Source: Zygnema cylindricum (lineage: Eukaryota; Streptophyta; Zygnematophyceae; Zygnematales; Zygnemataceae). From it: 64,000 nucleotides of DNA. Location of the stretch: assembly GCA_037447655.1 (NCBI GenBank), contig JBBHKE010000355.1:14045-78044 (forward strand), written 5' to 3'. Of the stretch, positions 15,349 through 52,030 are shown one piece after another. Every line of letters starts with the position of its first letter. The first letter of the stretch is position 1. Below the pieces are notes generated by a model. It searched no databases and was not told where the DNA came from. It was given only the letters and a program-made list of their open reading frames with translations. The translations under genes were made by a program, and so were the position numbers.

Positions 15349-16235
15349 TGTTGAAAAGAGGTAATTAATAGTTCACTTCTCTAATTTATTTTCAATTTAA
15401 AGAGAGAGAGTGAGGATCAAAGGCACGCCATTGCTGCCGCGATATTTAGAAAGTGGCAGAGTTAGAAGTAGAGGATATTTTCCAAAATAATGCTTAGGTC
15501 CAGATTTGAACCTGGGTTTCTGGACCTCTATATAGTCGTACGTCTTAACCACTAAGGCATTATTGAAACGATACACGTGACGGGTTTCAAAGATATATAA
15601 ACATTAACGTGACAGCTAATTAACACCAGACTAACAAAGAGAAACAATTCATGCATGTACGCGAATCTGAACCGTGTAAAATAGGTTTTTGATCGGACGG
15701 CCGGCATTATAGCCGCCACGCGAAGTGAGATTTTGGCGGCATACAAAGATAGCGTCACGCGATGCCACGTGGCGCCACATTATTTGATATTAGAAAAGAC
15801 GAGAGGAGGAACCAAGGCTTCTGATTTGACAGGTGTCACCTTGTAGACCTTGTTGTACAATGGTTGTACAATAAGTACATCGCCCATTGAACCCTCTTAT
15901 ACTATATAGTGTTCCTATTGGACTAGGGTTTAGTAGTAGGTAGTTGTGAGTAGGCACACCAAGACATAGTGATGTTTAGGGACCTCTCTCTAAGGGAGCT
16001 TGTAACTATAAAGGTCATCTTTGACCAACCATAACTTACTACTCAAGGAGCAAATTAAGTGATTATTTTTGCGTTTGACTCAGGAGAGTCTTGTCCTCAC
16101 AGAGGTGAGGGTGGTCAAAAAACTTTTGTGTCTGGGCAGGGCTTATTCAGTGGGAAATTGGAAAGGGAAAATATTATCCTAGAGGCTTTATATAGACTGC
16201 TCATTCTGTGGGTCAATAGAGACCACATAATTTCA
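15349..16235 (+). mobile_element. Element D 3' LTR (family C)
   Basis: Starts TGTTGAAAAG after the polypurine tract and ends ...TAATTTCA. It carries the antisense tRNA-like unit (15484-15564), GTAC words at conserved 11 and 9 bp spacing near 15856-15880, and the U5-type blocks GATTATTTTTGCGTTTGACTC and CTTGTCCTCACAGAGG shared with R1. No matching 5' LTR survives. Confidence 0.82.
15484..15564 (-). ncRNA. Antisense tRNA-like pol III unit in LTR C
   Basis: The most tRNA-like copy. On the minus strand it has an 8-bp acceptor-type stem (AATAATGC/GCATTATT), a D-arm CTTA-GTGGT-TAAG inside the A-box-like TTAGTGGTTAAGAC, and a B-box with canonical loop GGTTCAAATCT. A TTTT run directly follows the 3' strand of the stem. 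Total about 79 nt. No convincing anticodon arm, so it is probably not a functional tRNA. Confidence 0.6.
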
Positions 16236-16941
16236 TGGTGGAATAAAATACAAAGGAGATCAAAGCAAATAATCCCTGGATCATAGGAATAATCGATAAC
16301 TAGCTTCGTAATGTCACTCGTTGCACATCTTCGAAATGAATTTGGGGAGTTACTCGCGACGACTCACAAGCTTTTAGGAATGACAGCATGAATCAAGCTG
16401 GGCATATCACTCATGACCAATATCTACCAAGACGGCACATCGATGGAGGCTTACACCTCACATTAAGCTTACCTCTTGGCCGAAGCAGATGTTGTTGGCT
16501 TCATCCTTCCGATGGACACCAAGATCACACTTCTCATGCTGTCCTTACCGTTGAGTACAAACTTATACTCACGTGGCTTGATCGATTGGACCCACGACTT
16601 TGAAGTGGAATGAGATTGTTGAAGCTCTCTTGAAAGACGAGTTCAACACTAAAATCATGTCTAATCGTTAGCTCAATGGAGAGAGCTTTGCGTTAGTATC
16701 TGGAAAGGGGAGATTTCCCCTCAAGGAGAAAGACAAACGAGAAAGTCAAAATCAAGACAAGAAAGACAAGAAGTGTTTCTACTTTGACAAGCCTGGACAC
16801 TTCATCTTTGTTTGTCGCAAATAGACCTATGATAAGCAACACGACATGGTTGACGAATCAAAGCCAAAACAGGGGAAATTAAAAGGAAACGAGATTGTTT
16901 AGTTGAAAGCCATAATGGCATTCACCCTCTCGACCACTAAC
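16236..16941 (+). pseudogene. Outer copia 'C2', gag fragment
   Basis: Decayed gag of a lineage distinct from A/B/R1. Pieces include HLRNEFGELLATTHKLLGM, then WNEIVEALLKDEFNTKI, then the zinc knuckle CFYFDKPGHFIFVC (second Cys of CCHC replaced by Phe) and LKAIMAFTLSTTN at the end. The frame stops at R1's LTR. Removing R1 and one target-site copy joins STTN to NDLMVDTG at 44732 in frame, which identifies this as the gag of the C2 protease/integrase 28 kb away. Confidence 0.75.
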
Positions 16942-17857
16942 TGTAATTTTGTGACCTCCATTGGTCCACAGAATGTCCAGGTTATATGAAGCCTCTAGGA
17001 TAATATTTTCCCGTTTGACTTTCCCACTAAATAAATACCACGCTGGCACGCAAAAACTTTGACCACCTTCACCCCTATGAAGCCTCGACTCCTTTGAGTC
17101 AACGAAAAAAGAAATAATGAATTTGCTCCATTGAGCATTAAGTTATGGCTGGCCAAAGATGGCCTACAAATATAAAAGGTTTTCTGAGAGAGAGAGGTGC
17201 GTGAAAAAAATGTCTAAGTCCTTATATCCTCTCTAAACCCCCTAGTACTACTGTACTCAACCAATCACAAGATTGTAAAGTACATGAAGTACAGCCGTAG
17301 CTGAAATTCTTTCACGGGCATAGTACGGCATGGTCGTCCCGCTGGCGTCGATCAGTTCCTGAGCCATGGTCGCTCTTCTTGTAATATCCGCCGTCCTCTT
17401 AAGGATTGCCACGTGTTATCTGTCAACATTGGCTCACAAACCGCCAAATGACCACTCCGGTGCGTCGTCTTCACTATGAGCCGTCTAATTCGAAATCGGC
17501 AATTAATCACATCTGTTTAATTTCAACGTTGTTTTGTTTCGTAATTCGCGAAGTGGAGTATGTAGATTGGTACCGTTTTTAAATACGAAACACAACCATT
17601 GCATTTAACGTTTAATCAAGACCTAACAGATAAGGCGCACGGCTACGCCGTACGGTGGTCATCCAGTAGGTCATACGATCAAATCTTAGTCTCGGCGTCT
17701 AACTTTTGAAAATACATATGCCTCTTGCTCCCTTTGTCTTCTAGACTTTTTAAGGTAGCCATGGCTCTCTTTGTGACCTCAGTGACTATAAGAACTGCGA
17801 AGATTTAAAAACCTTCATAGAACAAAAGACAAAAAATAGAAAATAACTTTTTCAACA
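16942..17857 (-). mobile_element. R1 copia 3' LTR (reverse orientation)
   Basis: In element sense it starts TGTTGAAAAAG after a decayed purine tract and ends AAAATTACA. The 5-bp flank CTAAC (16937-16941) pairs with ATAAC (44727-44731), one mismatch, at the far LTR. Contains the tRNA-like unit (17621-17707, + strand, hence antisense to R1). Confidence 0.85.
17621..17707 (+). ncRNA. tRNA-like pol III unit in R1 3' LTR
   Basis: A-box-like CCTAACAGATAAGGCGC (compare ...GGATAAGGCGC of tRNA-Arg), B-box-like CGATCAAATCT at 17676-17686, TTTT at 17704-17707. Confidence 0.5.
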
Positions 17858-17870
17858 CTCCTCTTATATT

Positions 17871-18700
17871 CTAATCTATCTTTTGCTTCAGTCCACACTT
17901 CTCCCTACAAATTACCAACTTGGGAGAAGGCACAAGTTTAGTCATCATATCTGCTACCATCTCCCCATCTGGTCTATATTCCAAACTAATTATTTTATTC
18001 TCAACCTTCTCTCTAACAAAGCTTAATAGGATATCCATATGCTTTGCTTTAAAGTGATGCTTTCGGTTTGCTGCAATTGCAATTGCGGCTTGATTATCAC
18101 AAAATATTTTTTGCACCTCATTCTTCATATACCCAAGTTCTTGAAGCAATGATTTCACCCACATCAATTCTTTCATAGCCGAGCAAGAGGCCATATACTC
18201 ATCCCCTATGGTGGAAAGAGCAATCACCTTTTTTTGCTTGCTGCTCCAACAACAAGCCCCATTCTCAATATACAACACATACTTAGAAGTTTACCTCCTC
18301 AATGGAGCATCCCCATATATGGCATCTCTCCAAGTGGTGATGTCAGTATTATCCCCTCCTAAATGCAACCACAAATCTCTCGTTCATATCAAGTACCACA
18401 TGACTCTCTTAGCCGCTTCCCAATATTTTTTCCTGGGACCATTCAGACTCCTACTTAATATTCCTACAGCTGGTGCTATATCAGGACTGGTACAGTTCAT
18501 AAAATAGATCAGACTACCGACAACTTGTTTGTAAGAAATATTTTGCATAAACTTGCTTTCTTCTGCTCCTAACTCATTATCCAAGATCACAACTCCCCCT
18601 TCTAAACTCCATACGTTTCGTTTCTTTAAATCCATTGGAGTTGTACATCTATTTGTTTAAATAAGCAAATCATCAACATAGATTGCATTGAAAATTATAC
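17871..18700 (-). pseudogene. R1 RNase H and 3' part of RT
   Basis: RNase H (ACCWSSKQ, FCDNQAAIAIAANRKHHFKAKHMDI) and RT/connection remnants (MDLKKRN..., YKQVVGSLIYFMNC). The YVDDLL active-site block is at the right end (18664-18700). About 190 bp between YVDDLLI and the connection domain is deleted. Interrupted at 18700 by the gypsy element; RT continues at 29665. Confidence 0.85.
18696..18700. repeat. Target-site duplication TATAC, left (gypsy)
   Basis: Matches TATAC at 29660-29664. Joining across restores R1 RT reading EDKKGIIF.AIYVDD. Confidence 0.88.
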
Positions 18701-18724
18701 TGTAACAGGGTCAATAGTACCTAG
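18701..18724 (-). mobile_element. Gypsy 3' LTR, outer 24 bp (split by element B)
   Basis: TGTAACAGGGTCAATAGTACCTAG matches the outer end of the intact LTR at 29177. The LTR resumes at 25174 after the B insertion. Confidence 0.85.
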
Positions 18725-18921
18725 TGTAGAAATTAATGGTTTTTAGTATTTTCTAGGTCTGAATAGAAATAAAGAAGCCGAGGAAGTCTACCTCTAACTT
18801 CTCTCTCCAACTCTCAAACTTGTCGCAGTCACTGAGAAATTGGAGAGGAAGCTAGAGCCATGGCTACCTAGGCTATCCTGAGGTTTACGGGAAATTTATA
18901 TTGGTTAGGGGATTAATTACT

Positions 18922-19010
18922 AAAAGGTATGTGCCGGCGGTAGGATTTGATCCTGGTACCTGCCGGCCGACAGATAGTAGATAGCCAGTAGCCTTAGCCG
19001 TTAAGTCTAG
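18922..19010 (-). ncRNA. Antisense tRNA-like pol III unit, B 5' LTR
   Basis: Minus strand: A-box-like TAGACTTAACGGCTAAGGC (19009-18991), B-box GGATCAAATCC (18953-18943), TTTT at 18925-18922. Enclosed by a GCCGGC/GCCGGC pairing. Confidence 0.6.
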
Positions 19011-19385
19011 AAGTACTGTTACATAGTATATAGTACGATAAAATTTATACATGTAACCGTGGGATAAATCATTTAACTATAACAGTTAACGGGATACATA
19101 GATATAATAGTGTAAAAGTACGAATTGCGGTACGGAAAAGAAATCAATACCGCGATTGATTTCGTAAGCGCAACAAATACCGCGCATGTATTTATTACAG
19201 CTACGATCAAATGCCAGTTTAATCGGACGGACAGAATAAGTGCCGAGATGGCCGAAGCCGAATTCGGCGGTTTATGGATATTGCCACATCGGATGACACG
19301 TGGCGATGCTACATTGAAGGGCGGCATCTCCGAGGATTAAAGGAGCGAATCCGGACATTCCACGTGTGGACATTTAGACCATGTC

Positions 19386-19460
19386 GTACACTGTCCGTAC
19401 ATAAAGTACACCGGCAGCTGTACTTTTGCGTACGAAACTATATTTTGATTGGTTTCGTAC
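19386..19460 (+). promoter_or_regulatory. Phased GTAC array in U3 (element B)
   Basis: Six GTAC words start at 19386, 19397, 19406, 19420, 19430 and 19457: spacing 11-9-14-10-27. The family-A LTR has the identical spacing. GTAC is the core bound by green-lineage SBP-domain transcription factors. An ATTGG (CCAAT) lies before the last copy. A promoter/enhancer role is inferred. Confidence 0.5.
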
Positions 19461-19749
19461 ATCAGTAGATAGAGTCTGTAAGAGAGATAGGACTTAGAAA
19501 AATTAGAAGATAGGACCCTCTCTCCTAGAGAGATTCTGTACAAAAGGTCAACTTTGACCCTCCATAACTTACTGCTCAGGGGAGCAAATTCAGAGATTCT
19601 TTTTGCTATCGACTTAGGGGAGTCTTGCCTTCACAAGGGTGCAGGTGGTCAGAGTTTTTAATTGCCATGGTGGCATTTTTATTTGCTGAAACACAAAGGG
19701 GTCAGGATTATCCTAGAGGCTTTTTGAAAGCTGTCCACTCTGTGGACTT

Positions 19750-20840
19750 ATGGAGGTCTCACAGTTTCAGGTTATGGGCCCACCCTCTAGGGTACCAATC
19801 TTTAATGGAACTGGGTTCATATATTGGGAAAGTATGATGATAGGATCTCTATGCGAAAAAGGTTTTGGGGGATAGTGAGTGGACGGCTGAAGCGTCCATC
19901 AAGTCTTGGAATTCCTCCAGGGTTTGGAGGAAGCAGATTCACTAGGAAAGAAGATCCACCTTCAACGGAGGAAATAAAAGAAGGAGAGGTGGTGGACAAA
20001 GGAAAGGAGAAGGAGACGATCACACCAATAGCAATTGGTTTGGTATTCATGTCACCTATTCCGAGGAACGAGGAGAATGATACTGAAACTTGGGACTTCA
20101 ACAATATGGCGGCAAAGCACTTCATCCTACGCCATCTCACTCAAAGACTTGCATATCCTCATTTGCAAATAGAAAGGGCATCCGATCTTTGGATGGCTCT
20201 CATAGAGATGTACTGAAGTGGTACGATTCAGCAACAACAGTTTGCTAATCAGAAAGTTAAGGAGTATGTATACAAAGGGGGAAATATGTTGGATTTTTGC
20301 AATGAGCTTGCTACACTCTTCATGAAGCTACAGAGTGCAAAAAAAGATTTTAGTGAAAAAAAAAAGGTTAACTGTTTACTGATGAAGTTACCTGATGAGT
20401 TCGAGAACATAGTCAACCGTGTGCAGGACTTGCCGGACTCAAGGTGGATATGGAACTCAGTGGTATGAATGATTCTCGTTCGAGAGAATACAATTGAGAT
20501 CCAAAGGGGAGGAAAGAGTGGCGAAGCCTTGGCAATAGCAACTGATTGGAGGAAAAAGTATTCCCGAAAACCGGTCAAAATCTATGGGGGTAGGGAGCAA
20601 AAAAAACAGGTTGACGAGTTTGAACCAAGGGCACCCAAAGGTTTATGTCATTTTTTTAAGAAACCGGGTCACTATATGGCAGAGTGCACTAAACTAACCG
20701 AGCTTCGGTTAAAGGAGGGGCAGACCGGTGGTACCCCGAGAGGAAAGAAAAAGGCACTTGTCACACAGATACTTGAGGCGGAATCCGAGGACGAGGACGA
20801 TGAGCTCCTTTTGGATGAGGAGTTGGAGGCGAAAACTTAG
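19750..20840 (+). pseudogene. Element B gag
   Basis: The start ATG (19750) is 20 bp inside the LTR; the N-terminus MEVSQFQVMGPPSRVPIFNG reads through the primer-binding site. A missing A at about 19856-19860 shifts frame. In-frame TGA follow at about 20213 and 20466. The zinc knuckle is CHFFKKPGHYMAEC, with the second Cys changed to Phe. Ends in an acidic stretch and TAG at 20838, where a Gln codon is expected. The family role is RNA-binding capsid protein. Confidence 0.85.
19770..19784 (+). other. Half-tRNA primer-binding site, element B
   Basis: GGTTATGGGCCCACC, immediately after the LTR. It is fully complementary to the anticodon stem-loop of plant-type initiator tRNA-Met, the internal priming strategy known from Drosophila copia, Ty5 and Volvox Osser. 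Confidence 0.85.
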
Positions 20841-22967
20841 GTTGAAATTCCACGAAGGCAGAAATGTGCTTACGGTGGATTGAAAGGTGAAGCAGGCTGG
20901 ATTATAGATTCAGGTGCCTTAATGCACATGTGTAAGGATAGGCACCTGTTCACTAACATAAAAAAGATTTCGACCGTAGAGATAGAGTACGGGGATGGGA
21001 GGATAGTCACCACTACTCTTGTAAGATCGGTAGATCTGAAAGTGTTAGTAGAAGGAAAGACATCCATATTAACATTCTCCAATGTATTGTTTATTCCGGA
21101 GCTGAAAAAAAACCTTATCTCTACATCTGTATTAGATGATAAGGGTTTTTTCACTAGCACTAGGGAAGGAGTCTTTACTGCTAGTTTTGAGGAGGATGTC
21201 TATTTCATTGCTGAGAAAGGTAGCCATAGGATGTTTAGGCTGATCTTAAGTAATGAAATAAAGAAACTTTATTATGCTGGTGTTAATTATATTATGATGT
21301 GGCATAAGAGGCTTGGGCATGTGAATCTAGATAAGTTAAGAGAGATGAAAAAGATGGGAGTGGTGGAAGGGATTCAGTTCAGTGAGAGTGATGATATAAG
21401 TGATTGTAGTGGGTGTGCTCAAAGTAAAGCACACAGATTACCCTTTCCTAAAACAGCCACCTATAAGGGAGAAAAACTTCTAGATCTAGTACACACAGAT
21501 ATTTGGGGACCGGCTAGAGTGCCCTCACCGGGGGGGAAGAGATTTATGATGACTATAACTGATGATTGGTCTCGGTATTCTCGGGTGTATTTTTTGAAAA
21601 TCAAGTCAGAAGGTGAGGATTGTTTTAGACAATATAAAGCATGGAGCGAAAAACTCCATGAAACTCCAATCAAGAGAGTAAGGAGTGACAATGGTGGAGA
21701 GTATACTTCTAACCAGTTTGAGGATTTTTTGAGGGAAGATGGGGTCCAACACCAAAAGACAGTTCCAGAAAATCCGGAACAGAATGGGGTAGCTAAAAGG
21801 TTAAGTAGAACACCAAGTGATAGTGCTAGAAGTATGTTGTCAAATAAAAAGATAGGAAAAAGATTTTGGGCAGAAGGAATGAACTGTGCTAATTATCTCA
21901 AAAATAGAGTTCTTACTTCAGCTATAAAAGATCAAACACCTTATGAGAGATGGACAGGCCGGAAACCAGACATATCTCACTTAAAGGTTTTCGGCAGTCA
22001 AGTATTCAGTCTAGATAGAGATCAGTCTAATTGGAAGTTAGATCCTAAAGGAAAACCGGGATACTTATTAGGATATGATGAAGATGTTAAAGGATATAGT
22101 GTTTATGATCTAAAAAAGGAAGATATAATCTTAGTAAAACATCTAGTAGTTATGGATGAAAGAAAGTCTGTGGATCCCTTCAAATATACGAAGTCAGTAA
22201 AAATCAGATTTGAGTCAGAAAATTTTGATGACTTTGAGCTTCCTAACTATCCAGGTTTTAGAGACGATGACATTCTTGCAGGTACAAATCAGACCAAAAA
22301 AGACTCGGCTGTGGAAACTCCAGTGACAACTCTACCCGAAGCGGAAGACGTGATGGAAATTGATTCGGAATCAAGGGATAGGGGAGAAACCGAGTTTGTT
22401 CGAAAGAATCCACGAGAACCATCTATTCCGGCCTCAGATTTTGAGGGGGGAAGGAGAAGTAGTAAAAGACTGCAAGAAAAAAAGGTTAATAACAAGGTAA
22501 CTAAACTATCTCATCAAGATAAACCTCAAACTTATGGAGAGGCGATGACTTGTCCAGAAAGAAATCGGTGGAAGACAACCATCAATGAAGAGATGGCCTC
22601 AATTATGGCAGCCGATACTGGGGAGCTGGTGGATTGTCCACCTAACCGAAAACCAATCGGTTGTAAGTGGGTTTTCAAATTAAAACTGAACCCAGATAAC
22701 ACAATCGAGCGCTACAAGGCCCGACTAGTGGCAAAGGGATATACACAAAAGGAGGGATTTGACTACGAGGAAACCTTTGCCCCGGTGGTCAGATTTCCCT
22801 CCGTCTGCATACTTCTCAGTTTAGCAGCAGTGGAAGTCATAGAAGTGCACCAGATGGACATCAAGACAGCCTTCTTGCATGGAGAATTGGAAGAGGAGAT
22901 CTTCATGCGACAACCCGAAGGTTTTGTGGAGGAAGGAGAGGAGAGTAAGGTATGCCGGCTGATTTAA
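20839..22967 (+). CDS. Element B pol part 1: protease, integrase, N-terminal RT
   Basis: 695 codons open after 20880. Aspartic protease WIIDSGALMHMC. GAG-pre-integrase zinc finger with MWHKRLGHVNLDKL and CSGCAQSKAH. Integrase core with HTDIWGP and RSDNGGEY; the third catalytic position, exactly 35 residues after the second Asp, is Lys (NGVAKRL), so integrase should be dead. Then GYLLGYDEDVKGYSVYDLK, linker, and RT fingers/palm (WVFKLKLNPDNTIERYKARL, HQMDIKTAFLHGELEEEI). Ends at a TAA where the family has Lys (LI*SLYGLKQ). Cytoplasmic/nuclear retrotransposition machinery. Confidence 0.92.
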
Positions 22968-24107
22968 TCTCTTTATGGTTTGAAACAAGCGCCTCGACAA
23001 TGGAATAAGAAGCTTGATGAGTTTCTTACCGGTCTGGGATATATTCGCATCAGCTCAGATCACTCAATCGATGTTTTCGAAGATGAGGAAGGTTTGATAT
23101 TAATTGCAATTTATGTTGATGATTTGTTTGTTTTAAGTAAATCAAAGGAAAAAAATAATAAACTGAAAACCGATCTTAAGGGGAGATTTGAAATGAAGGA
23201 TATGGGGGAAGCAAAATATATTTTGGGAATTCAAGTAGAGAGAGACCGAAAAAGGAAAATTATAAGACTGACTCAAAAGGAAGCAATAGGGAACATGCTT
23301 GAAAAATTTCAAATGGATAAAGCTAATAGTTGTACAACTCCAATGGAGTTGAAGAGGGGAAGTGAGGGGAGTGAGGAAGAAGGAGTCATAGTCTTAGACG
23401 AAGAATTATCTCCTGAAGAACAGAAGTTCATGCAGACCATTCCTTACAGGCAAGTAGTGGGAAGTCTAATTTATTTTATGAATTGTACCCGGTCGGATTT
23501 AGCTGCAGTTGTAGGAGTGCTGAGTAGAAGACTAAATGCTCCCACTAAGAAGGATTGGGAGGCAGCTAAGAGAGTCCTTAGATATTTGATAGGAACTAGG
23601 GATCTATGGTTGCATTTGGGTGGGGAGAATACTGACATCACAACTTGGAGTGATGCCAATTATGGTGATGCTCCGATGAGGAGATACACTTCTGGATATG
23701 TATTATATGTGGGTGATGGGGCTTGCTGTTGGAGTAGCAAACAGCAAAAGGATATTGCTCAGTCCACCATGGAGGCTGAGTATATGGCCTTTGTCTCTGC
23801 TGTAAAAGAACTGATGTGGGTCAAGTCTTTACTTGGTGATCTTGGTCATCTTAAGAGTGGTGTGCAGAAAATATTTTGTGATAATCAGGCAGCAATTGCT
23901 TTTTCTGCCAATCCTAAACATCATTTTAAAGCCAAACACATGGATATCAGACTCAGCTTTGTTAAAGAGAAAGTAGAAAACAAAAAAATCAGTTTAAAGT
24001 ACAGACCAGATAGTGAGATGGTAGCAGATATGATGACCAAACCTGTGCCTTCCCCTAAGCTATTTTTTTGCAGGGAGAAGTGTGGTCTGAAATTAAAGAT
24101 TGACTAG
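22968..24107 (+). CDS. Element B pol part 2: RT palm and RNase H
   Basis: Continues part 1 after the TAA: SLYGLKQAPRQW, RT active site IAIYVDDLFV, connection domain (GSLIYFMNCTRSDLA), and RNase H with WSDANYGD, QSTMEAEYMA and FCDNQAAIAF (the D-E-D residues present) and HHFKAKHMDIRLSFVKEKV. 375 codons, no internal lesion. Polypurine tract and 3' LTR follow within 14 bp. Confidence 0.93.
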   Translation, partial: SLYGLKQAPRQWNKKLDEFLTGLGYIRISSDHSIDVFEDEEGLILIAIYVDDLFVLSKSKEKNNKLKTDLKGRFEMKDMGEAKYILGIQVERDRKRKIIRLTQKEAIGNMLEKFQMDKANSCTTPMELKRGSEGSEEEGVIVLDEELSPEEQKFMQTIPYRQVVGSLIYFMNCTRSDLAAVVGVLSRRLNAPTKKDWEAAKRVLRYLIGTRDLWLHLGGENTDITTWSDANYGDAPMRRYTSGYVLYVGDGACCWSSKQQKDIAQSTMEAEYMAFVSAVKELMWVKSLLGDLGHLKSGVQKIFCDNQAAIAFSANPKHHFKAKHMDIRLSFVKEKVENKKISLKYRPDSEMVADMMTKPVPSPKLFFCREKCGLKLKID

Positions 24108-24120
24108 AAAATAAGGGGAG
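24107..24120 (+). other. Polypurine tract, element B
   Basis: GAAAATAAGGGGAG abuts the 3' LTR. Confidence 0.85.
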
Positions 24121-25168
24121 TGTAGAAACTAATGGTTTTATTAGTATTTTCTAGGTTTGAAAAGAAATATAGAAGTCGAGGCAGTCTATCTCTAACTTCT
24201 CTCTCCAACTCTCAAACTTGTCACAGTTACTGAGAAATTGGAGAGGAAGCTAGAGCCATGGCTACCTAGGCTATCTTCAGGTTTACGGGAAATTTATATT
24301 GGTTAGGGGATTAATTACTAAAAAGTATGTGCCGGCGGCAGGATTTGATCCTGGTACCTGCCTGCTGACAGATAGTAGATAGCCGGTAGCCTTAGCCGTT
24401 AAGTCTAGAAGTACTGTTACATAGTATATAGTACGATAAAATTTATACATGTAACCGTGGGATAAATCATTTAACTATAACAGTTAACGGGATACATAGA
24501 TATAATAGTGTAAAAGTACGAATTGCGGTACGGAAAAGAAATCAATACCGCGCATTGATTTCGTAAGCGAAACAAATACCGTGCATGTATTTATTACAGC
24601 TACGATCAAATGCGAGTTTAATCGGACGGTTGGAATTAGCGCCGAGATCGCGGAAGCCGAATTCGGCGGTTTTGGGACATTGCCACATCGGATGACACGT
24701 GGCGATGCTACATTGGAGGGCGGCATCTCCGAGGATTAAAGGAGCGAATCCGGACATTCCACGTTTGGACATTTAGACCATGTCGTACACTGTCCGTACA
24801 TATTGTACACCGAGAGCTGTACTTTTGCGTATGGAACTGTATTCTGATTAGTTCCGTTTATCAGTAGATAGAGTCTGTGAGAGAGATAGGACTTAGAAAA
24901 ATTAGAAGATAGGACCCTCTCTCCTAGAGAGATTCTGTACAAAAGGTCAACTTTGACCCTCCATAACTTACTGTTCAGGGGAGCAAATTCAGAGATTCTT
25001 TTTGCTGTCGACTCATGGGAGTCTTGTATTCACAAGGGTCTAGGTGGTTAGAGTTTTTGTCTGCCAGGGTGGCAGTTATTTCTGCTGAAACACAAAGGGG
25101 TCAGGATTATCCTAGAGGCTTCTTAGAAGCTGTCCACCCTGAGGACTTATGGAGGTCTCAGAGTTTCA
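24121..25168 (+). mobile_element. Element B 3' LTR
   Basis: 1048 bp, TGTAGAAACTAAT...GAGTTTCA, followed by TSD CCTAG (25169-25173). B is thus 18725-25168, 6444 bp, inserted in the gypsy 3' LTR. Confidence 0.93.
24320..24408 (-). ncRNA. Antisense tRNA-like pol III unit, B 3' LTR
   Basis: A-box-like block 24408-24389, B-box GGATCAAATCC 24351-24341, terminator TTTTT 24324-24320. Substitutions relative to the 5' LTR copy fall between the boxes, not in them. Confidence 0.6.
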
Positions 25169-25173
25169 CCTAG

Positions 25174-25632
25174 AGCACACCACAATGCACATCGTAAAAC
25201 ACCAAGGATCTTCCTGTAGCAACAGTAGGAGCACACAACACTAATAGACAAGGTTGCGCTTTATTACTTGAAAGAGAGAACAAGGCTGCGCTAGCTGCGT
25301 AGGTCTACTTGAAGTGTTTTATTCACAAGCCTACCTGACTATTTAAACTAGCTAGCTGCTCGTCAACGTAGTACTGTACAACTGTACAAGTGGACCTTCC
25401 CGGTCAACCTAGATCTATCTAAACATTCTTCCTGAACTATTCCGCTCATTCAACATTCTGCCGCGTTGCTATGCTGCGCAACTATGTTGCGGCACTACTA
25501 AGTTGCTATGCCGCTAAGTTGCTTTGCTGCCACGCTGCGCTGGTCTGGAATTGCTGCTACGCTGCTCTAGAATCGCAGCTATAGCAGCCTAGCCCTAGCC
25601 ACTAAGTACCCAAATCCTGTAACCGTGTTACG
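25174..25632 (-). mobile_element. Gypsy 3' LTR, inner part
   Basis: Continues the LTR started at 18701. It matches 29181-29659 and ends GTTACG (intact copy GTTACA). Rich in GCTGC/GTTGC words. Confidence 0.85.
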
Positions 25633-26311: not shown

Positions 26312-26334
26312 GGTTTCCAACAAGGAGAGTACCG

Positions 26335-29163: not shown

Positions 29164-29175
29164 GCTTAGATACCA
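29164..29175 (-). other. Gypsy primer-binding site
   Basis: TGGTATCTAAGC, one base inside the LTR. It is complementary to the 3' end of initiator tRNA-Met (TGGTATCAGAGC) at 10 of 12 bases. Confidence 0.7.
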
Positions 29176-29176
29176 G

Positions 29177-29659
29177 TGTAACATGGTCAATAGTGCCTAC
29201 AGCACACCACAATGCACAACAGAAAAAACCAAGGATCTTCCCTTAGCAACAGTAGGAGCACACAACACTAGCAGACAAGGTTGCGCTTTATTACTTGGAA
29301 GAGAGTACAAGGTTGCGCTCACTACGTAGGTCTATTTGAAGTGTTTTATTCACAAGCCTACCTGACTTTTCAAACTAGATTGTTGCTAGTCAACCTAGTA
29401 CTGTACAACAGTACACGTGGACCTTCCCGGTCAACCTAGATCTATCCAAACATTCTTCCAGAACTATTCCACTCATTCAACATTCTGTGGCGTTGCTATG
29501 CTGCGCTGCTATGTTGCGGCGCTACTAAGTTGCTACGCCGCTAAGTTGCTATGCTTCCACGCTGCGCTGGTCTAGAATCGCAGCTGCGCTTCTCTGGAAT
29601 CGCAGCTATAGCAGCCTAGCCCTAGTCACTAAGTACCCGAATCCTGTAACACTGTTACA
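29177..29659 (-). mobile_element. Gypsy 5' LTR
   Basis: 483 bp with terminal TGTAAC/GTTACA, followed by TSD TATAC (29660-29664). The gypsy element is 18701-29659, about 4.5 kb without element B. Confidence 0.9.
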
Positions 29660-31734: not shown

Positions 31735-31824
31735 AAAAAGGGAGTTTCACGGAGCCAGGATTTGATCCTGGTACCTTCCATACCTCAAATCCGATATAGC
31801 CGGTAATCTTATCCTAATAGTCTA
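31735..31824 (-). ncRNA. Antisense tRNA-like pol III unit, solo LTR A
   Basis: A-box-like TAGACTATTAGGATAAGAT (31824-31806). Perfect 5-bp T-arm CCAGG-ATCAAAT-CCTGG containing the B-box (31771-31755). TTTTT terminator (31739-31735). Confidence 0.62.
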
Positions 31825-34202: not shown

Positions 34203-35040
34203 AATAATTATGTGACCTCCATTAGTCCACATAAATTCGAGCTTATATGAAGCCTTTAGGATACTATTTTCCCGTTTGATTTTCCCACTGAATAAGTGCC
34301 ACCCTGGCATGAAAATATTCAGACCATTTTCACCTCTGTGAAGGCCCAACTCCTTTGATTCGAACGCAAAAAGAATCACTGAATTTGCTCCCCTGAGCAT
34401 TAATTTATAGCAGGTTAACGATGGCTTTTAAATTTAGAAGGTCTCTCAAAGAGAGAGGTGCCTCAAAAAAAAATTTAAGTCCTAATTCCCTCTCTAAACC
34501 CCCTAGTAATACTGTAGTTAACCAATCACACGACAGTGAAGCACAAGAAGTGTTGTTGATGCGGTACTTCTTGTACGGCCATAGTACGTCATGGCCGTCC
34601 CGCTGACGTCTCTCTGTTCCCGAGCCTTAGTCGCTCTTCCCGTAAAATCCGCCGTCCACTTATGGATTGCCACGTGTCATCCGCCGACATTGACTCACAA
34701 TCTGCCAAATGACCACTCCGGTGTGTCGGCTCCACTATGAGCCGTATGATTCAAAATCGGCAATTAATCGCGTCCGTTTAATTTCAACGTCGTTTCGTTT
34801 CGTAATCCGCGAAGTGGAGTATGTAGATTGTTACTATATTTATATACAAAACACACCCAATATGTTTCACGTTTCATCAAGACCTAACGGATAAGGTGCA
34901 CGACGCCATACGCTGGTCACTCCGTAGGCCGAAGATCAGGTCATAGTCTCGGCGCCTTAATTTTGCAAAGAGCTATCTCCTGTTCCTTTAGCTTGTCTTC
35001 CTAACTGCCTAAAGTAGTCATGGTTGTCTTTGAGTCCTCA
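34203..35040 (-). mobile_element. R1 5' LTR, copy 1 (truncated)
   Basis: Homologous to 43799-44640; homology stops at about 35040 (GAGTCCTCA), so the outer end including terminal TG is missing. From 34775 it diverges abruptly from copy 2 after 2.6 kb of identity. Confidence 0.85.
34881..34974 (+). ncRNA. tRNA-like unit, R1 5' LTR copy 1 (decayed B-box)
   Basis: A-box-like GACCTAACGGATAAGGTGC and TTTT at 34971-34974 are present. The B-box region reads AGATCAGGTCA and is damaged. Confidence 0.4.
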
Positions 35041-35520
35041 ATTTACAATTTACGGGAACTGTACGGTTTTGTACGGTAAATGTACGTACTTTGATGAAAA
35101 GATACGTTGCACTTCGTAGTACTTGCTGTCTGGTAAAATGTACAGAAATTTTACGGAAATTGTACCGAATTGGACCGAAAATGTATGAAATATTACGCAA
35201 AGAGACGGAAATTGTACGGAAAACTTACAAACTGCGGTGTATGTACAATTAATTTTCGTTTACATGTACAGAATAGTACGGACGAAAATTCATTAACGAT
35301 TTTTACTATTTTTTCAAAACGTAAATGCGTTTGTTACGTATAATTCGTCGCGATTGAATCGTTCGCACTAAACGATGTGATCAACTGTGCAATTTTGCAA
35401 GTATAGAACACAAAGTTCATATAATCGACGATGTAAGTGTCAAACGTTTCAAAAAGCGTATTGCTTAATATATGAAGTCGTTTAGCTGATCGTACCGTAG
35501 CTATTTTCTACACGAATTCA
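35041..35520. repeat. Degenerate TGTACGGAAATT repeat region
   Basis: TACGG/GTACGG words with AAATT spacers recur through 35041-35300. The rest is unassigned. It starts exactly where R1 LTR homology ends. Confidence 0.5.
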
Positions 35521-38063: not shown

Positions 38064-39118
38064 TGTAAAAATTAATCGTCTTTTAAAGTGTTTTCTAGGT
38101 CTGAATAGAAATAAGAAAGAAGCCGAGGCAGTCTACCTCTAACTTCTCTCTCTAACTCTCAAACTTGTCGCAGTCACTGAGAAGTTGGAGAGGAAGCTAT
38201 AGCCATGGCTACCTAGGCTATCCAGAGGTTTACGGGATATAAATATTAGTTTATTTATAATTAGGAATATGTTTACTAAAATATATGTGTCGCCTCCAGG
38301 ATTTGATCCTGGATCCTGCCGGCCGGTAATTAGTCGGTAGTCGGTAGCTCTAACTGTTAAGTCTAGAGATAGTGTTACGTATTATCGGGATTGATAATTA
38401 ATTAAACATTTATACGTAGGATAGTTCATTTAATTGTAATAGTTTTACGGGAGACATAGATCCAGTAAATGTAAAAGTACGGATTACGGTACGGATAAGA
38501 AACCAATACCGCGCATTTATTTCTTTACCGAAACAAATACAGCGCATGTATTTATTACGGCTACGATTAAATGTGAATTTAATCGGACGGCCGAAATTAA
38601 ACGCCGAGATCCCGGAAGAGAATTTCGGCGGTTTTTGATCATAGCCACATCGAATGACACGTGGCGGAATGGCATTGGATCGCGGCATCTCCCAGGATTA
38701 AGGGAGCGAATTCGGATATACCACGTGTCGACATTTAGGCCATGTCGTACAATGTTCGTACAGAAAGTACATCGAGAGCTGTACTTTTACGTACGGAGGA
38801 GTAATCTGATTGGCTCAGTACATCAGTAGATAGAGTTTGTGAGAGCGATAGGACTTAGAAAAAATTAGGAGATAGGACCCTCTCTCCCAGAGAGCTTCTG
38901 TACAAAAGGTCAACTTTGACCCTCCATAACTTACTGCTCAGGGGAGCAAATTCAGAGATTCTTTTTGCTATCGACTGAGGGGAGTCTTGCTTTCACAGGG
39001 GTGAACTTGTCTGTCAAAGTGGCAATTTTTTTTGCTGAAACAAAAAAGCGTCAGGGTTATCTTAGAGGCTTCTAGGAACCTATCCACTCTGAGGGCTCAT
39101 GGAGGTCTCAGAGTTTCA
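38064..39118 (+). mobile_element. B-type LTR, 5' end of a chimeric element
   Basis: TGTAAAAATTAATC...GAGTTTCA, 1055 bp, clearly family B. Its left flank CTTTT does not match the flank of the LTR at the other end (GCTAC), and that LTR is family A. Confidence 0.88.
38278..38366 (-). ncRNA. Antisense tRNA-like pol III unit, B LTR at 38 kb
   Basis: A-box-like TAGACTTAACAGTTAGAGC (38365-38347), perfect T-arm CCAGG-ATCAAAT-CCTGG (38312-38296), TTTT (38281-38278). Confidence 0.62.
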
Positions 39119-40090: not shown

Positions 40091-40093
40091 GCT

Positions 40094-41107: not shown

Positions 41108-41121
41108 AAGAAAATTAGACT

Positions 41122-41136
41122 AGAAAATAAGGGGAG
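41122..41136 (+). other. Polypurine tract of family A
   Basis: AGAAAATAAGGGGAG immediately before the LTR. Confidence 0.85.
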
Positions 41137-42326
41137 TGTTGGAATTTAAGTATTTTCTAGGTCTAGAGATTGCAAAATAAAAAGCATATAGTAGATATTG
41201 ACAACCTACCTCTAACTCCTCACTCAAGTCCCCACACTTGTCGCAGTCACTGAAGACTGGAGGAGGAGTTAGCCATGGCTGCCTATGTTGTGTAGAGAGA
41301 GAGACAGGCAGTTGTTTTATTGAGATTTCTAAAAAGGGAGTTTCACGGAGCCAGGATTTGATCCTGGTACCTTCCATACCTCAAATCCGATATAGCCGGT
41401 AATCTTATCCTAATAGTCTAGGTTACAAGATGTATTATACGAGGTATGTCGGTTTAATAAATACTTACAATTAGACTAATTCATTTAACGGATACTATAT
41501 ACATAATGCATAGAAACAGTTGTAAATTACGACGTACGGTACGGCTACGAAATAAATACCGCGCATTTTGTTTGACGGCGGAAAGAATACCGCGCAAGTA
41601 TTTATGACGGCCACGATTGATATCCGAATTTGATCGGACGGCCGCGAAGGATGCCGAGATCGCGGAATAGGATTTTGGCGGTTTGCGATCACCGCCACAT
41701 CGAATGCCACGTGGCAAAACTACATTGGATTGCGGCAATTCCGGGGATTACGAAAACGAATCTGGATATGACATGTGTCAACAATTTGGCCATGTCGTAC
41801 GATGGCCGTACAGAAAGTACACCGGCACCTGTACTTTTCTGTACGACACAGTATTTTAATTGGTGCCGTACGTCAGTAGATAGAGTTTTAGAGGGAGATA
41901 GGACTTAGAAAATTTGGCAAATAGGACCCTCTCTATGAGAGAGCACCTTGTATAAATGGCAAACTTTGATCAGCCATAACTATCAATTTACTTGACCATT
42001 TTCAGTGATTCTTTTTGCTGCGGATTCACGGGAGTCCACGCTACACAGGGGTGTAGTCAGTCAGAGTTTTTGTCTGCCAGGGTGGCGGTATTTCTAAGGG
42101 AAATTCAAAGTGGGTGAATGTGTCCAAATCTCATATTTTAACTTTGCATTCTGTGGTGGAACTGACCACATAGAAATTGTTATTTCACAGGGGTGAATCT
42201 TTATTGGGGTTCTGATTGTCAAGGGGTCAGTCATTTGGGTTTATATCAACTTGGAGTCGGCACTATCTAGATAAGCTTCTTTTGGATCTGCTTACTCTAA
42301 GGGCCAATGGAGGACTCAGAGTTTCA
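41137..42326 (+). mobile_element. Family-A 3' LTR of the chimeric element
   Basis: 1190 bp, preceded by a polypurine tract (so a true 3' LTR) and followed by GCTAC and R1 sequence, exactly the right flank of the solo LTR at 31543. Confidence 0.92.
41331..41420 (-). ncRNA. Antisense tRNA-like pol III unit, LTR A at 41 kb
   Basis: A-box-like block 41420-41402, T-arm/B-box 41367-41351, TTTTT 41335-41331; boxes identical to the solo LTR copy. Confidence 0.62.
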
Positions 42327-43784: not shown

Positions 43785-43798
43785 GTGGGCCCCTAACC

Positions 43799-44726
43799 AA
43801 TAATTATGTGACCTCCATTAGTCCACATAAATTCGAGCTTATATGAAGCCTTTAGGATACTATTTTCCCGTTTGATTTTCCCACTGAATAAGTGCCACCC
43901 TGGCATGAAAATATTCAGACCATTTTCACCTCTGTGAAGGCCCAACTCCTTTGATTCGAACGCAAAAAGAATCACTGAATTTGCTCCCCTGAGCATTAAT
44001 TTATAGCAGGTTAACGATGGCTTTTAAATTTAGAAGGTCTCTCAAAGAGAGAGGTGCCTCAAAAAAAAATTTAAGTCCTAATTCCCTCTCTAAACCCCCT
44101 AGTAATACTGTAGTTAACCAATCACACGACAGTGAAGCACAAGAAGTGTTGTTGATGCGGTACTTCTTGTACGGCCATAGTACGTCATGGCCGTCCCGCT
44201 GACGTCTCTCTGTTCCCGAGCCTTAGTCGCTCTTCCCGTAAAATCCGCCGTCCACTTATGGATTGCCACGTGTCATCCGCCGACATTGACTCACAATCTG
44301 CCAAATGACCACTCCGGTGTGTCGGCTCCACTATGAGCCGTATGATTCAAAATCGGCAATTAATCGCGTCTGTTTAAATTCAACTTCGTTTCGTATCGTA
44401 ATCCGCGAAGTGGAGTATGTAGATTGGCACCGTGTTTAAATACAAAACACATCCAATATATTTAACGTTTCATTAAGACCTAACTGACAAGGCGCATTGC
44501 TACGCCGTATGGTGGTCATCCCGTAGGTCATAGGATCAAATCCTAGTCTCGGCGTCTAACTTTTGAAAAGACCTATTCCTCTTGCTCCTTTAGTCTGTCT
44601 TCTTAACCGCTTAAGGCAGACATGGCTCTCTTTGAGTCCTCAGTAACTACGACAAGTGTGAGGACTTAAAAACCTTCATAGACACACTGACAAAAGACAC
44701 AAAAATAGAAATTACCTTATTCAACA
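43799..44726 (-). mobile_element. R1 5' LTR, copy 2 (complete)
   Basis: Ends ...TTCAACA (TGTTGAA in element sense) at 44726, next to ATAAC and the C2 protease. Primer-binding site at 43785-43798. Confidence 0.88.
44475..44564 (+). ncRNA. tRNA-like pol III unit, R1 5' LTR copy 2
   Basis: A-box-like GACCTAACTGACAAGGCGC, B-box GGATCAAATCC (44533-44543) in a TAGG/CCTA stem, TTTT at 44561-44564. Confidence 0.58.
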
Positions 44727-44731
44727 ATAAC

Positions 44732-46321
44732 AACGATTTGATGGTGGACACTGGGCTAATAAAAAACACATGTATCGCAGGGAGTGGCGCCAATATTAAG
44801 GAAACTACTCCCTCCCGCATATACATGGGAGACAATCATACGTCACTCATCATAGGCAAGGGAGACATTGAGATCGAAGCGGTAGTAGATGGCAAGTTGG
44901 TTTCCTGCACATTGAAGAATGTGCTCTATATTCCTATGAAGTGTAACCTTTTCTCAATTCCCCAAGTTGAAGACAACAGAACCATACCGATTTGGCAAAA
45001 AAAGGAAAATAAAGCTGGTGAGAAACAGACTTACCATCGCAGAAGGGGAAAGAATGGCAGATGGCTAAAGTGCAGCCCGAAGCAAAAATCCATAGCTCTC
45101 GCAGCCCAAGCTGTTCTTCCATCACACGAAGAGAACACCAAAGAGAAAGAGGAGATGAAAGAGAATGCTGTCAAAAAGGAAGTCACTAACAACAAAGTGA
45201 AGTTTGACAAACTTACACAACCAACATACAACCAACTCTTTTTGCACTGGCGATTAGGCCATCTCCACATTGACGAAATGAAAAAACTAATTGCAAGCAA
45301 CATGGTTAATGGAATAAATCTTACCTTTGTCAAAGATTCCAAAGAACCTTGCCACAGTTGGGAGATGGGGAAATCCCATCATCTTCCATTACTCAGACTC
45401 GGAGGAACGAGGGCTACTCGCCCGCTTACACTAATTCACTCCAACGTATGGGGCCCAACAAGGGTGCCCTCGTGTAGTTGGAGAAGATACTTCGTCACCT
45501 TTATTGATGACTTCTCCCGGATGACTCACACGTACTTGCTCCGACATAAAAGCAAGGTGTTTCAAAAGTTTAAAGCACTTAAAGCAATTGCTAAGAAAAA
45601 GCACAAAACAAAAATCAAATGCTTAACGAGCGACAACGGAGAAAAACATTTGTCGGCTGAGTTGAAGAAGTTCCTCACCTCAAAAGGGATTGAACACCAA
45701 TTGACAACACTCGGAACTCGGCAACAGAATAGTGTGGCAGTGTTCATGAACCAAACACTTTTGGAAATGTCACAAAGCATGATGGTGACGCACACTGTCA
45801 GCTCCGACTATTGGGGAGAAGCAATCTACACAGCAACATATCTCATAAACCGATGCCCAATGAGAGCGTTAGAGAAATCAACCTTGTTTGGAAAGTGGAA
45901 TGGCAGACGTCCTAATCTATCGCAACTCCAAGTGTTTGGTAGAAGAGCTAATGTTTTCAACCACAACAATCAAGGTGGGAAGCTAACTCCTGAAGCAACT
46001 GAGGGGATATTCGTCATATATGACAAATATTGCAAAGCATATGGCATTGCAAACAAAAAGACTAAAACGATCACCATTTCAAGAAACATAAAGTTCGGAG
46101 AACTGCCCAAACCGAATACATTGGGAGTCACACAAATAGAATTGATATCTCACTCTCAATGTGGTCCTTAAGTGATGAAGAAATTGAGCGTGAAACGAAG
46201 GCAGGAGAGTATGACGAATCAAAAAGAGAGGGAGAGGAGAGACCCTCCCCATCAAAGACCCTTGAGCTGCCTGCAATTGAGGAACAACCACGTGGCAAAG
46301 AAAGCTACAGTAGGGCAAAAA
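44732..46321 (+). CDS. C2 copia protease and integrase
   Basis: 477 codons open (44738-46171), then decayed to the E insertion. Protease DLMVDTGLIKNTC (catalytic DTG). Zinc finger HWRLGHLHIDEMKKL with CHSWEMGKSHH, whose second Cys is replaced. Integrase core with HSNVWGP (first Asp changed to Asn), FIDDFSRMTHTYLL, SDNGEKHLS; then QQNSVAVFMNQTL, where the catalytic Glu (family AER) is missing. Inactive integrase. A lineage separate from A/B/R1/E/G. Confidence 0.85.
46317..46321. repeat. TSD AAAAA, left (element E)
   Basis: Matches AAAAA at 52031-52035. Confidence 0.75.
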
Positions 46322-47316
46322 TGTAGAAATTAAAGGATTCTTTTATATATTTTCTAGGTCTGAATAGGAAAAATAAAAGAAGGAAGTAAGCAAATGCAGC
46401 TTGCTTCTCGCTCCACTCTCCAGTCCCCTTACTTGTTGCAGTCACTTAAGACCAAAAAGAGAGCCAAGGCCATGGTTGCCTATGCTCTCCAAGGAGACAA
46501 CGAGTAGGCTAATATAAGTCTTTACCAAAAAGGTTGTCAGAACCAGGTTTTGATCTTGGTACCTACCGTCCGTTAAATTTGCAAGTAGCCGTTAGCTTTA
46601 CCCTATAGTCTAGGACCATTGCTGAGATATATAGGGTACGATAGGTATTTAAATATGTAGACGTAGACAATTCCATTTAACTGATAGAACAGTCTCTTAG
46701 AGCATAAAACCCGTTGTATCTTACATTTCATATGAAACAAATGTTACGGACATTTATTTCGACGGTCTATATCAAAAGCAGATTTTAATCGACAGCCATG
46801 ATGCGAGCCGACATTCAAGAATGTTCGCCTTGGCGGTTTTCGGATGCCGCCACTCCATATGACACGTGGCAATATCTTATATGATTACGAAATCTCCGAA
46901 CCGCACGATAACAAGTCTGGATGTGACTGTTGTCAACGTTATGGCTATGCCGTACAAGGGCCGTACAAAAAGTACTCTGGCACTTGTACTTTTCTATACA
47001 GCACAGTCTTGTGATTAGTGCCATACTTTAATAAAAAGGGGTTTAAAGAGATTTAGACCTAGCCAAATTTAGAAGCCGCCTTCTTCGAGAGCTTCTATAA
47101 AGTCATCTTTGATCATTCATAATTTACCGCTCAGAATTGCTATATTTCTTTGCTATCAACTCAAGAGTGTCTTCTCTAAACAATGGTGAACTTGGTCAGA
47201 GTTTTTGTTTGCCAAGGTTAGTGTTATTTTTGTTGAAACAAGAAGGGGTGAGGTTTATCCTAGGGGCTTCATGTGATCTACCCACTCTGAGGACCTATCG
47301 AGGTCTTAGAGTTGCA
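46322..47316 (+). mobile_element. Element E 5' LTR
   Basis: 995 bp, TGTAGAAATTAAAGG...AGAGTTGCA. Related to B but a separate family. The gag ATG that lies inside the B LTR is ATC here. Confidence 0.9.
46527..46612 (-). ncRNA. Antisense tRNA-like pol III unit, E 5' LTR
   Basis: A-box-like TAGACTATAGGGTAAAGC (46612-46595), B-box AGATCAAAACC (46556-46546), TTTTT (46531-46527). Confidence 0.58.
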
Positions 47317-47331
47317 TGTTATGGGCCCACC
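47317..47331 (+). other. Half-tRNA primer-binding site, element E
   Basis: TGTTATGGGCCCACC, one mismatch at the LTR-proximal base. Confidence 0.8.
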
Positions 47332-50790: not shown

Positions 50791-51001
50791 AATCAAACCA
50801 CATCATTTTAAAGCAAAACACATGGAAATTAGACTAAGTTTATTAGAGAGAAAGTGGAAAACAAAATAATAAGTTTAGAATACAGACTTGATAGTGAAAT
50901 GATAGCAGATATGATGAACAAGCACGTACCATCTCCTAACTTAATCTTTTGTAGAGAGAAGTGTGGTCTTAAACTAGAAAGTGAAAAGAAAATAAGGGAA
51001 G

Positions 51002-52030
51002 TGTAGAAATTAAAGGTTTCTTTCATGTGTTTTCTATGTTTTTGAATAGGAAAATAAAAAAGAGGAAGTCAGCAAAGGCAGCTTGCTTCTCGCTCCACTC
51101 TCCAATCCCCATACTTGTTGTAGTCACTGAAGACCAGCGAGAGAACCGACGAGAGAGCCAGAGCCATGGTTGCCAATGTTGTCTAAGGAGACAACAAGTA
51201 GGCTAATATAAGTCTTTACCAAAAAGGTTGCCGGAACCAGGTTTTGATCTTGGTACCTACCGTCCGTTAAATTAGCAAGTAGCCGTTAGCTTTATCATAT
51301 AGTCTAGGACCTTTGCTGAGATATATAAGGTACGATAGGTATTTAAATATGTAAACCTGGAGAATTCCATTTAACTGATAGAACAGTCTCTTAGAGCATA
51401 AAACCCGTTGTACCTTATATACCGTATGAAACAAATGTTACGAACATTTATTTTGCAATCTATATCAAAAGCAGATTTTGGATCGACAGCCATGATGTGA
51501 GCCGACATTCAAGAATGGTCGTCTTGGCGGTTTTCGGACGCCGCCACTCTAGATGACACGTGGCAATATCTTATACGATTACGGAATCTCCAAACTGCAC
51601 GATAACAAGTCCGGATGTGAGTGTTGTCAACATTATGGCTATGTCGTACAAAGACGGTACAAAAAGTACTTTGGCACCTCTATTTTTCTATACGAAACAA
51701 TCTTGTGATTGGTGCCGTACTTTTATAAAAAGGGGTTTAAAGAGAGATTTAGACTTAGCCAAAATCAGAGGTAGCTGACTGTCTCCAAGAGAGCTTCTGT
51801 ACAAAAGGTAATCTTTGACCATTCATAATTTACTACTCAGGGGAGTAAATTCAGTGTTTCTTTTTGCTATCGACTGAAGAGAGTCTTCTCTTGACAAGAG
51901 TGAACTTGGTCAGAGCTTTTGTTTGCCAAGGTTAGTGTTATTTTTATTGAAACAAGAAGGGTTTAGGTTTATCGTAGGGACTTCTTGTGAGCTGCCCACT
52001 CTGAAGACCTATAGAGGTCTCAGAGTTGCA
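51002..52030 (+). mobile_element. Element E 3' LTR
   Basis: 1029 bp, preceded by GAAAATAAGGGAAG and followed by TSD AAAAA. E spans 46322-52030 (5709 bp) within C2. Confidence 0.9.
51221..51306 (-). ncRNA. Antisense tRNA-like pol III unit, E 3' LTR
   Basis: A-box-like TAGACTATATGATAAAGCT (51306-51288), B-box AGATCAAAACC (51250-51240), TTTTT (51225-51221). Confidence 0.58.

Follow-up and report, generated by a model that had tools for sequence, protein, structure and literature searches.

An antisense, probably tRNA-derived unit with a polymerase III-type promoter layout in the long terminal repeats of Copia elements in Zygnema cylindricum

Many nested Copia elements occupy the 64,000-nucleotide stretch of the Zygnema cylindricum genome analysed here (positions 14,045 to 78,044 of the forward strand of contig JBBHKE010000355.1, assembly GCA_037447655.1; hereafter the window), and eleven copies of their long terminal repeats (LTRs) contain a short tRNA-like unit, which is the subject of this study. 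In element A, which lies on the plus strand, the unit is found in the first third of the 5' LTR (18725..19769, bounded by TG...CA); the 3' LTR spans 24121..25168, the LTRs are about 1,045 bp long, and the element is flanked by the 5-bp target duplication CCTAG. The primer-binding site (PBS) GGTTATGGGCCCACC follows directly after the 5' LTR (19770..19784, plus strand) and is complementary to the anticodon arm of the host initiator tRNA-Met (iMet). Two open reading frames for pol (20880..24107, plus strand) contain the gag_pre-integrs, integrase and RVT_2 domains, and the unit thus sits antisense inside a protein-coding Copia element.

All eleven units listed in the original prediction were found in the window, antisense to the Copia element and at coordinates that were exact or a few bases off. 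In each, an A-box-like block is accompanied by a B-box-like block of 11 nt and by four or more consecutive Ts. On the minus strand, unit C (15484..15601) has a TATA-like octamer at 15594-15601, the A-block at 15542-15558, the B-box at 15502-15512 (GGTTCAAATCT) and the T-run at 15484-15487. In the same order, these parts are located at 19042-19049, 18991-19007, 18943-18953 (GGATCAAATCC) and 18922-18925 in unit A1 (18922..19049), at 24440-24447, 24389-24405, 24341-24351 and 24320-24324 in unit A2 (24320..24447), and at 38399-38406, 38347-38363, 38299-38309 and 38278-38281 in unit D (38278..38406), in which the B-box is part of a perfect CCAGG/CCTGG stem. They are located at 46646-46653 (TTTAAATA), 46595-46610, 46546-46556 and 46527-46531 in unit E1 (46527..46653), and at 51340-51347, 51289-51304, 51240-51250 and 51221-51225 in unit E2 (51221..51347). 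Also on the minus strand are unit B1, in a solo LTR (31735..31822; A-block 31806-31822, B-box 31758-31768, T-run 31735-31739), where the A+T-rich stretch upstream is a poor match to the TATA-like octamer (5/8), and its duplicate B2 (41331..41418; A-block 41402-41418, B-box 41354-41364, T-run 41331-41335). The R1 units are on the plus strand, with the element of R1a on the minus strand: R1a (17578..17707; TATA-like octamer 17578-17585, A-block 17620-17636, B-box 17676-17686, T-run 17704-17707), R1b (34839..34964; 34839-34846, 34881-34897, 34933-34943 with the degenerate B-box AGATCAGGTCA, 7/11, and 34961-34964) and R1c (44435..44564; 44435-44442, 44477-44493, 44533-44543 and 44561-44564).

Some details had to be revised. 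Nearly all of the predicted coordinates hold, but the T-run of R1b is at 34961-34964, short of the predicted end at 34974. The five families proposed, A, B, C, R1 and E, are all present, but the copy at 38278 represents a separate A-like family, which we named D. The perfect CCAGG/CCTGG stem, said to occur often, is seen in the window copies of B and D but not in A, C, E and R1. A1 and A2 are the two LTRs of a single element (93.3% identical), as are E1 and E2 (85.9%), and B1 and B2 lie within a duplicated segment with 10 differences over 3,202 aligned columns, up to about position 34,740. Thus, the eleven units correspond to fewer than eleven independent insertions. Past about 34,740, the duplicated B/R1 segment diverges steeply through the R1 LTR, including the unit (34740-35240 against 44340-44842), which reflects either a breakpoint or a conversion tract.

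Beyond the window, the genome (352.8 Mb in 2,689 contigs) was read in parts, and labels such as L031 and L070 denote the loci fetched from it. For queries with the unit, the C unit and the T family, 40 of 2,866, 1,912 and 3,695 candidate places, respectively, were scored, and profile searches of the fetched loci led to further diverged families. Family T emerged among the weakest profile matches (E 0.002-0.09) and has its unit at the same place in the LTR; the copy at L036 contains the canonical B-box GGTTCGAGTCC and TTTTT. A search pattern combining the D-arm of tRNA-Arg with the B-box identified 20 places, which by reading of the matched strings are six tRNA-Arg genes and 14 repeats of a family outside the window, family G, two of which were read (L069 and L070). 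Their LTRs are C-like, with a similarity of about 76% to the window C LTR and of 88.7-89.1% to L047, and the unit is again antisense. The A-box is a full match to TRGYNNARNGG in L070 (TAGCCTAATGG, 11/11) and nearly so in L069 (TAACCTAATGG, 10/11), the B-box GGTTCAAATCC matches at 11/11 positions in both, and the T-runs are at +14 and +12. Since the D-arm letters belonged to the search pattern, the resemblance of family G to tRNA-Arg reflects the way in which it was identified; its T-run, in turn, is free of selection bias because only the A-box/B-box pattern was used to find it.

We aligned a hand-picked, representative set of 29 copies, grouped by eye into 17 clades, and the unit is antisense in every aligned family. 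Column statistics were calculated with sequence weights for 27 copies (A02 and A49, which are incomplete downstream, were omitted) over 296 well-filled columns, with a mean conservation of 0.63. The B-box reaches 0.86 and falls in the second-best 11-column window of the aligned part of the LTR, followed by a GGCTA block (0.78), the A-block (0.74) and the TATA-like block (0.72), while the spacers score 0.54-0.60 and the stretch between the TATA-like box and the A-block 0.55. Positions that are invariant in tRNAs are well retained, namely A14 (0.85), G19 (0.90), A21 (1.00), G53 (1.00), T55 (1.00), C56 (0.89), R57 (1.00), A58 (0.95) and C61 (0.96), with G18 at 0.72. Compared to GGTTCRANNCC, the B-box matches at 11/11 positions in four of the 29 copies, at 10/11 in 14 and at 7-9 in the other 11.

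The T-run was predicted to be a persistent part of the unit, and at least four Ts are indeed found at +14 to +18 after the B-box in 28 of the 29 copies, F35 being the one that lacks them. In 16/17 clades, TTTT occurs within 3 nt of +16, which makes it the top positional 4-mer (at most 13 for B-box 4-mers and 10 for CCATGG 4-mers); averaged over every offset sampled, including those around +16, TTTT has a frequency of 4.2%, and AAAA was found at +16 in none of the 17 clades. For comparison, a survey of flowering plants reported poly(T) of at least four within 50 nt downstream of 67-73% of the tRNA genes (PMC11700998). The spacing upstream is similarly constrained: an octamer with at least 6/8 matches to TTTAAATA starts 54-56 nt before A21 in 14/17 clades, as compared to a median of 0 at other distances and 8/17 at the next-best distance of 83, and outliers were retained in these counts. 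The best octamer, if freely chosen, is at 54-55 in 22/29 copies and elsewhere (35-78) in seven. The TATA-like box was outside the two unit profiles used, but inside the BLAST query for family T. The distance from A21 to the B-box is 34-44 nt in the 29 copies; for type-2 promoters, 30-40 bp between the A- and B-boxes and a TATA-like box at -31/-24 have been described (PMC7279448).

Several observations weigh against a tRNA-derived polymerase III unit, and these are gathered here. The A-box is degenerate in the window families: T8 (0.17) and G10 (0.05, weighted) are mostly lost, no window family retains G10, only C retains T8, and only 4-7 of the first eight A-box positions match. Hence, the A-box-like block that was predicted in all eleven units is present, but does not conform to the consensus. 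In most B-boxes, A54 replaces T54 (0.63). Furthermore, a sequence outside the unit, GCCATGG, exceeds the B-box in conservation (0.88 and 0.86). In family C, the bins with the boxes and the T-run score 0.87-0.96 around a mean of 0.92, no better than the neighbouring LTR, so that the proposed persistence of boxes and terminator amid diverging spacers is true across families but not within family C. Among three host iMet genes, the best octamer is at 50 (an exact TTTAAATA), 61 and 64, and thus near the distance seen in the units in only one of them. Finally, the copies were collected with unit profiles or BLAST, which favours conserved boxes and T-runs. The 29 A-type loci with an A-block, as identified by pattern, have an exact B-box in 27 cases and a T-run in all 29, but are biased by the unit query; the B-box core is kept in 21/26 rows of family C and the T-run in 23/26. 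Because of this bias, and because dead copies decay neutrally, our claim does not rely on conservation within families.

Within the aligned part of the LTR, conservation across families peaks at 18856-18865 of the window, around the palindrome AGCCATGGCT, which lies about 70 nt beyond the B-box and outside the unit.

The tests for tRNA genes and RNA structure were also mostly unfavourable. ARAGORN at default settings called no tRNA in the window and none on the units in the window and the fetched loci; at relaxed settings (-ps90), six of 13 calls fell on C-family units, on the antisense strand. The Rfam tRNA model (RF00005) was absent from the matches for the window, even with E values of up to 10 allowed, as well as from those of three shorter scans, and it was not listed for L069. 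At L070, the best Rfam match was the tRNA model, on the antisense strand at the unit, with 18.4 bits (E 2.5), below the cut-off of 29. A canonical tRNA identity is therefore ruled out by the ARAGORN defaults and the Rfam cut-offs. The top-scoring Rfam match in the window was a long (TA)n run at 877-955 and is meaningless.

The absence of T-runs inside the unit (0 against 8.0 expected) carries no specific signal because A-runs are likewise depleted (1 against 8.4 expected), and avoidance of internal terminators was rejected on these grounds. The T-stem contains 107/135 standard pairs as compared to 100.1 in shuffles (p 0.005, not corrected for relatedness), a modest excess, and a reading of the pair list indicated changes on both sides at four of the five pairs. 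The counts of G-U and A-C pairs (11 and 8) provided no strand signal, and strand-specific RNA structure was likewise rejected. The acceptor-like 8-bp stem noted in the original prediction for C is fully paired in the window copy (row L037), but in none of the 25 other C-family copies, which have 5-7 of the eight pairs. Similarity to host iMet was 38 in the forward and 19 in the reversed direction for B, and 41 and 16 for E1, but did not exceed shuffles in R34, C50, C47a and T61; the tRNA similarity of the unit is thus strand-specific in many but not all copies. An F-type unit at L029:2318-2413 contains a 10-bp stem, CTTGACGGAC/GTCCGTCAAG, that encloses the T-arm and forms a long hairpin on either strand.

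Across the families, the units are homologous, share their orientation and spacing, and retain a conserved B-box and a terminator-like T-run. We consider it probable, at roughly 60%, that this clade of Copia LTRs inherited a single antisense, tRNA-derived polymerase III unit of about 83-96 nt with a type-2 layout. Descent from a tRNA gene or a tRNA-headed element is indicated by the ordered TATA-like box, A-box, B-box and T-run, their fixed spacing on one strand, and the existence of a family with perfect boxes; judged by the best-preserved member, the unit is probably of a tRNA-Arg-like type. The original interpretation accordingly stands for the tRNA-derived antisense layout and the persistence of B-box and T-run, with the perfect boxes of family G as further support, but has to accommodate a degenerate A-box, a GCCATGG block above the B-box and boxes in family C that are not special.

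The same data can be read in other ways. One hypothesis, which we regard as unlikely but worth keeping in view, is that the unit is a tRNA-derived fossil that acts as a DNA element only: TFIIIC, as at extra-TFIIIC sites, or another factor binding to the B-box palindrome would then create an insulator or an upstream activating site for the sense polymerase II promoter, without any antisense RNA. The decay of the A-box at T8 and G10 while the B-box was kept fits this idea, as do the other LTR blocks around the unit that are equally or more conserved (several blocks outside the unit score higher than the unit when the window's own families are aligned) and the fact that the TATA-like octamer can be read in the sense direction too. 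A mere binding site, however, needs neither a T-run at a fixed distance (28/29 copies) nor a fixed spacing of the TATA-like box to A21. The latter features also speak against plain inheritance, in which a SINE or a tRNA gene in the ancestral LTR decayed without function and the families resemble each other by common descent. The degraded A-box and the unremarkable box and T-run bins of family C (0.87-0.96 around 0.92) would be as expected, but a B-box, a T-run and a TATA-like box kept at fixed spacing across families, with spacers of 0.54-0.60 between them, would not, and we consider this explanation improbable.

Two further possibilities place the function in the RNA of the element itself, and we think that both are very improbable. 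Like the U3 segment of the bipartite PBS in Ty3 (PMC5371799), the sense U3 RNA could pair with the T-arm of iMet, a pairing that would account for the antisense orientation. In the same tRNA, the anticodon arm is complementary to the normal PBS, and the T-arms of A, B, D and E resemble that of host iMet, A54 included (z 5.6 to 10.6 in local alignments). An iMet-type PBS was also identified in C (exact), D, E, F33 and R1, and in degenerate form in family T (0-3 mismatches). But C, with its exact iMet PBS, has T54 units and a weak iMet similarity (z 3.5-4.2), and the units of T and R34 have none beyond shuffles. The identity of the unit thus fails to track the primer tRNA, unlike the complementarity in Ty3, and we rejected this candidate on account of the units of C, R34 and T, which do not correspond to the iMet primer. 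Alternatively, the unit could be a hairpin of the element's own RNA, serving packaging, dimerisation or a 3'-end signal in U3, and be T-arm-like by looks only. In several clades, the T-stem is partly preserved by changes on both sides, and a 10-bp stem surrounds the T-arm in some F-type units, as seen at L029. Yet the identity of the stem varies widely, the pairing excess is modest, the G-U and A-C counts indicate no preference for the sense strand, and the tRNA-invariant loop positions and the T-run would be left unexplained.

With regard to the primer tRNA, a pattern search of the host genome for initiator tRNA-Met yielded six places, five of which are identical over the matched 34 nt. ARAGORN called tRNA-Met in both fetched initiator loci, and the gene at L068 is presumably equal to the plant initiator tRNA, which by itself would suggest a land plant as the host. 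Concerning the elements themselves, the target duplication of element E is AAAAA and of low complexity, and a young element on contig C873 (L031), with LTRs that are 98.2% identical over 1,053 bp, carries the same intact unit in both. A pair of repeats of about 463 bp (25169-25631 and 29196-29658, 90% identical), the first directly adjoining the 3' end of element A, are possibly the LTRs of another element.

How, then, might an inherited tRNA-derived polymerase III unit have arisen and been put to use? We envisage that a tRNA gene or a tRNA-headed element was inserted antisense into an ancestral LTR, followed by selection for the polymerase III machinery. In the predicted layout, the TATA-like box would lie at about -31, A21 of the A-box at about +24, the B-box 34-44 nt further on and the T-run 14-18 nt after it. 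A position of A21 near +24 would be normal for a tRNA gene. The predicted RNA would begin about 31 nt past the first nucleotide of the TATA-like box and end at the T-run; its length of 83-96 nt and the position of A21 both follow from applying the published -31/-24 rule to the TATA-like box. TFIIIC would bind to the B-box, and polymerase III may then be recruited, at least in families G, T and C, which have good boxes, to produce a short RNA antisense to the copy of U3 that the element RNA carries at its 3' end. The data suggest that the elements make, or once made, short RNA against themselves. Most likely, the unit would act in cis: placed next to the sense promoter and divergent from it, it would keep the LTR open or adjust sense transcription, and the complementary RNA could potentially act as a brake as a second effect. 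Families with a degraded A-box may retain TFIIIC binding alone. More speculatively, and on balance doubtfully, a divergent two-polymerase LTR may have been kept over at least 17 LTR clades, with polymerase II in the sense direction and a polymerase III gene of tRNA-Arg ancestry opposite to it at a shared or neighbouring TATA-like box, the 83-96-nt RNA of which would limit or tune copying.

The arrangement had been thought to be undescribed. A search of the open-access literature, with subscription papers outside its scope, identified one close work among the papers listed, the study by Kojima (2024) on Helenus and Ajax (PMC10886601), according to which tRNA-like sequences occur in the LTRs of the short, non-autonomous Helenus elements; an antisense version in protein-coding elements was not found in this search, and the main text of that study never uses the word "antisense". 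Like the unit, the tRNA-like sequence of Helenus (TRIMp3) has A- and B-boxes and is mostly not a functional tRNA. Helenus elements also have a PBS and, in fungi and plants, 5-bp target duplications, as does element A with its PBS and CCTAG, and most fungal Helenus have a PBS for the anticodon loop of a tRNA, iMet among them (PMC10886601). However, they are 311-1263 bp long and protein-free, whereas the elements in this study are pol-encoding Copia with integrase and RVT_2 domains and LTRs of about 1 kb. Moreover, the tRNA-like part of Helenus was proposed to be its own promoter, while autonomous partners were argued to need polymerase II (PMC10886601); the unit described here cannot make the element's own RNA because it is antisense to the element in every aligned family.

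In Cassandra and Ajax, which are 5S rRNA-derived TRIMs, the LTR sequence is likewise derived from a polymerase III gene, and the promoter and terminator are conserved in Cassandra (PMC10886601), but the origin is 5S rRNA rather than tRNA and the sequence drives the element's own transcript in Cassandra. Half-tRNA-Met primer sites were reported by Neumann et al. in the plant Copia lineages Osser, Bryco and part of Gymco-II (PMC6317226), and the elements studied here resemble these in PBS type, which would be in line with a non-flowering host; a tRNA-like LTR unit is not mentioned in the passages of that source consulted. Polymerase III units of its own are also found in another retroelement, bovine leukaemia virus (PMC4992882), but there they form the microRNA cluster of a retrovirus, in contrast to the tRNA-like sequence of a plant LTR described here.

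We also observed a 515-bp element at L051:1760-2274, with two 230-bp LTRs (TGTTGGATT...AATCTAACA, 89.7% alike), a PBS-like sequence TGGTATTAGAGCC and a G-run before the second LTR. ARAGORN called a tRNA-like sequence on the sense strand of its first LTR, and further copies of the LTR are found at L026:1-222 and L034:3358-3589. Judged by this structure, the sequence appears to be a Helenus-type TRIM, though a target duplication is not evident. In Kojima (2024), a single plant Helenus was described, from Selaginella (PMC10886601).

Our findings indicate that the module is old, since it is shared by highly diverged LTR families, and the elements that carry it are abundant in the host genome. In the open literature searched, LTR sequences derived from polymerase III genes are the promoters of tiny parasites of LTR elements; here, such a sequence appears to be built into protein-coding elements, in the opposite direction. 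The unit would make the coexistence of polymerase II and polymerase III promoters within a single LTR testable, and families G, T and C provide clear constructs for such experiments. If the unit is transcribed, it would equip the Copia elements of Z. cylindricum with an antisense RNA that they encode themselves or with an inbuilt site for TFIIIC.

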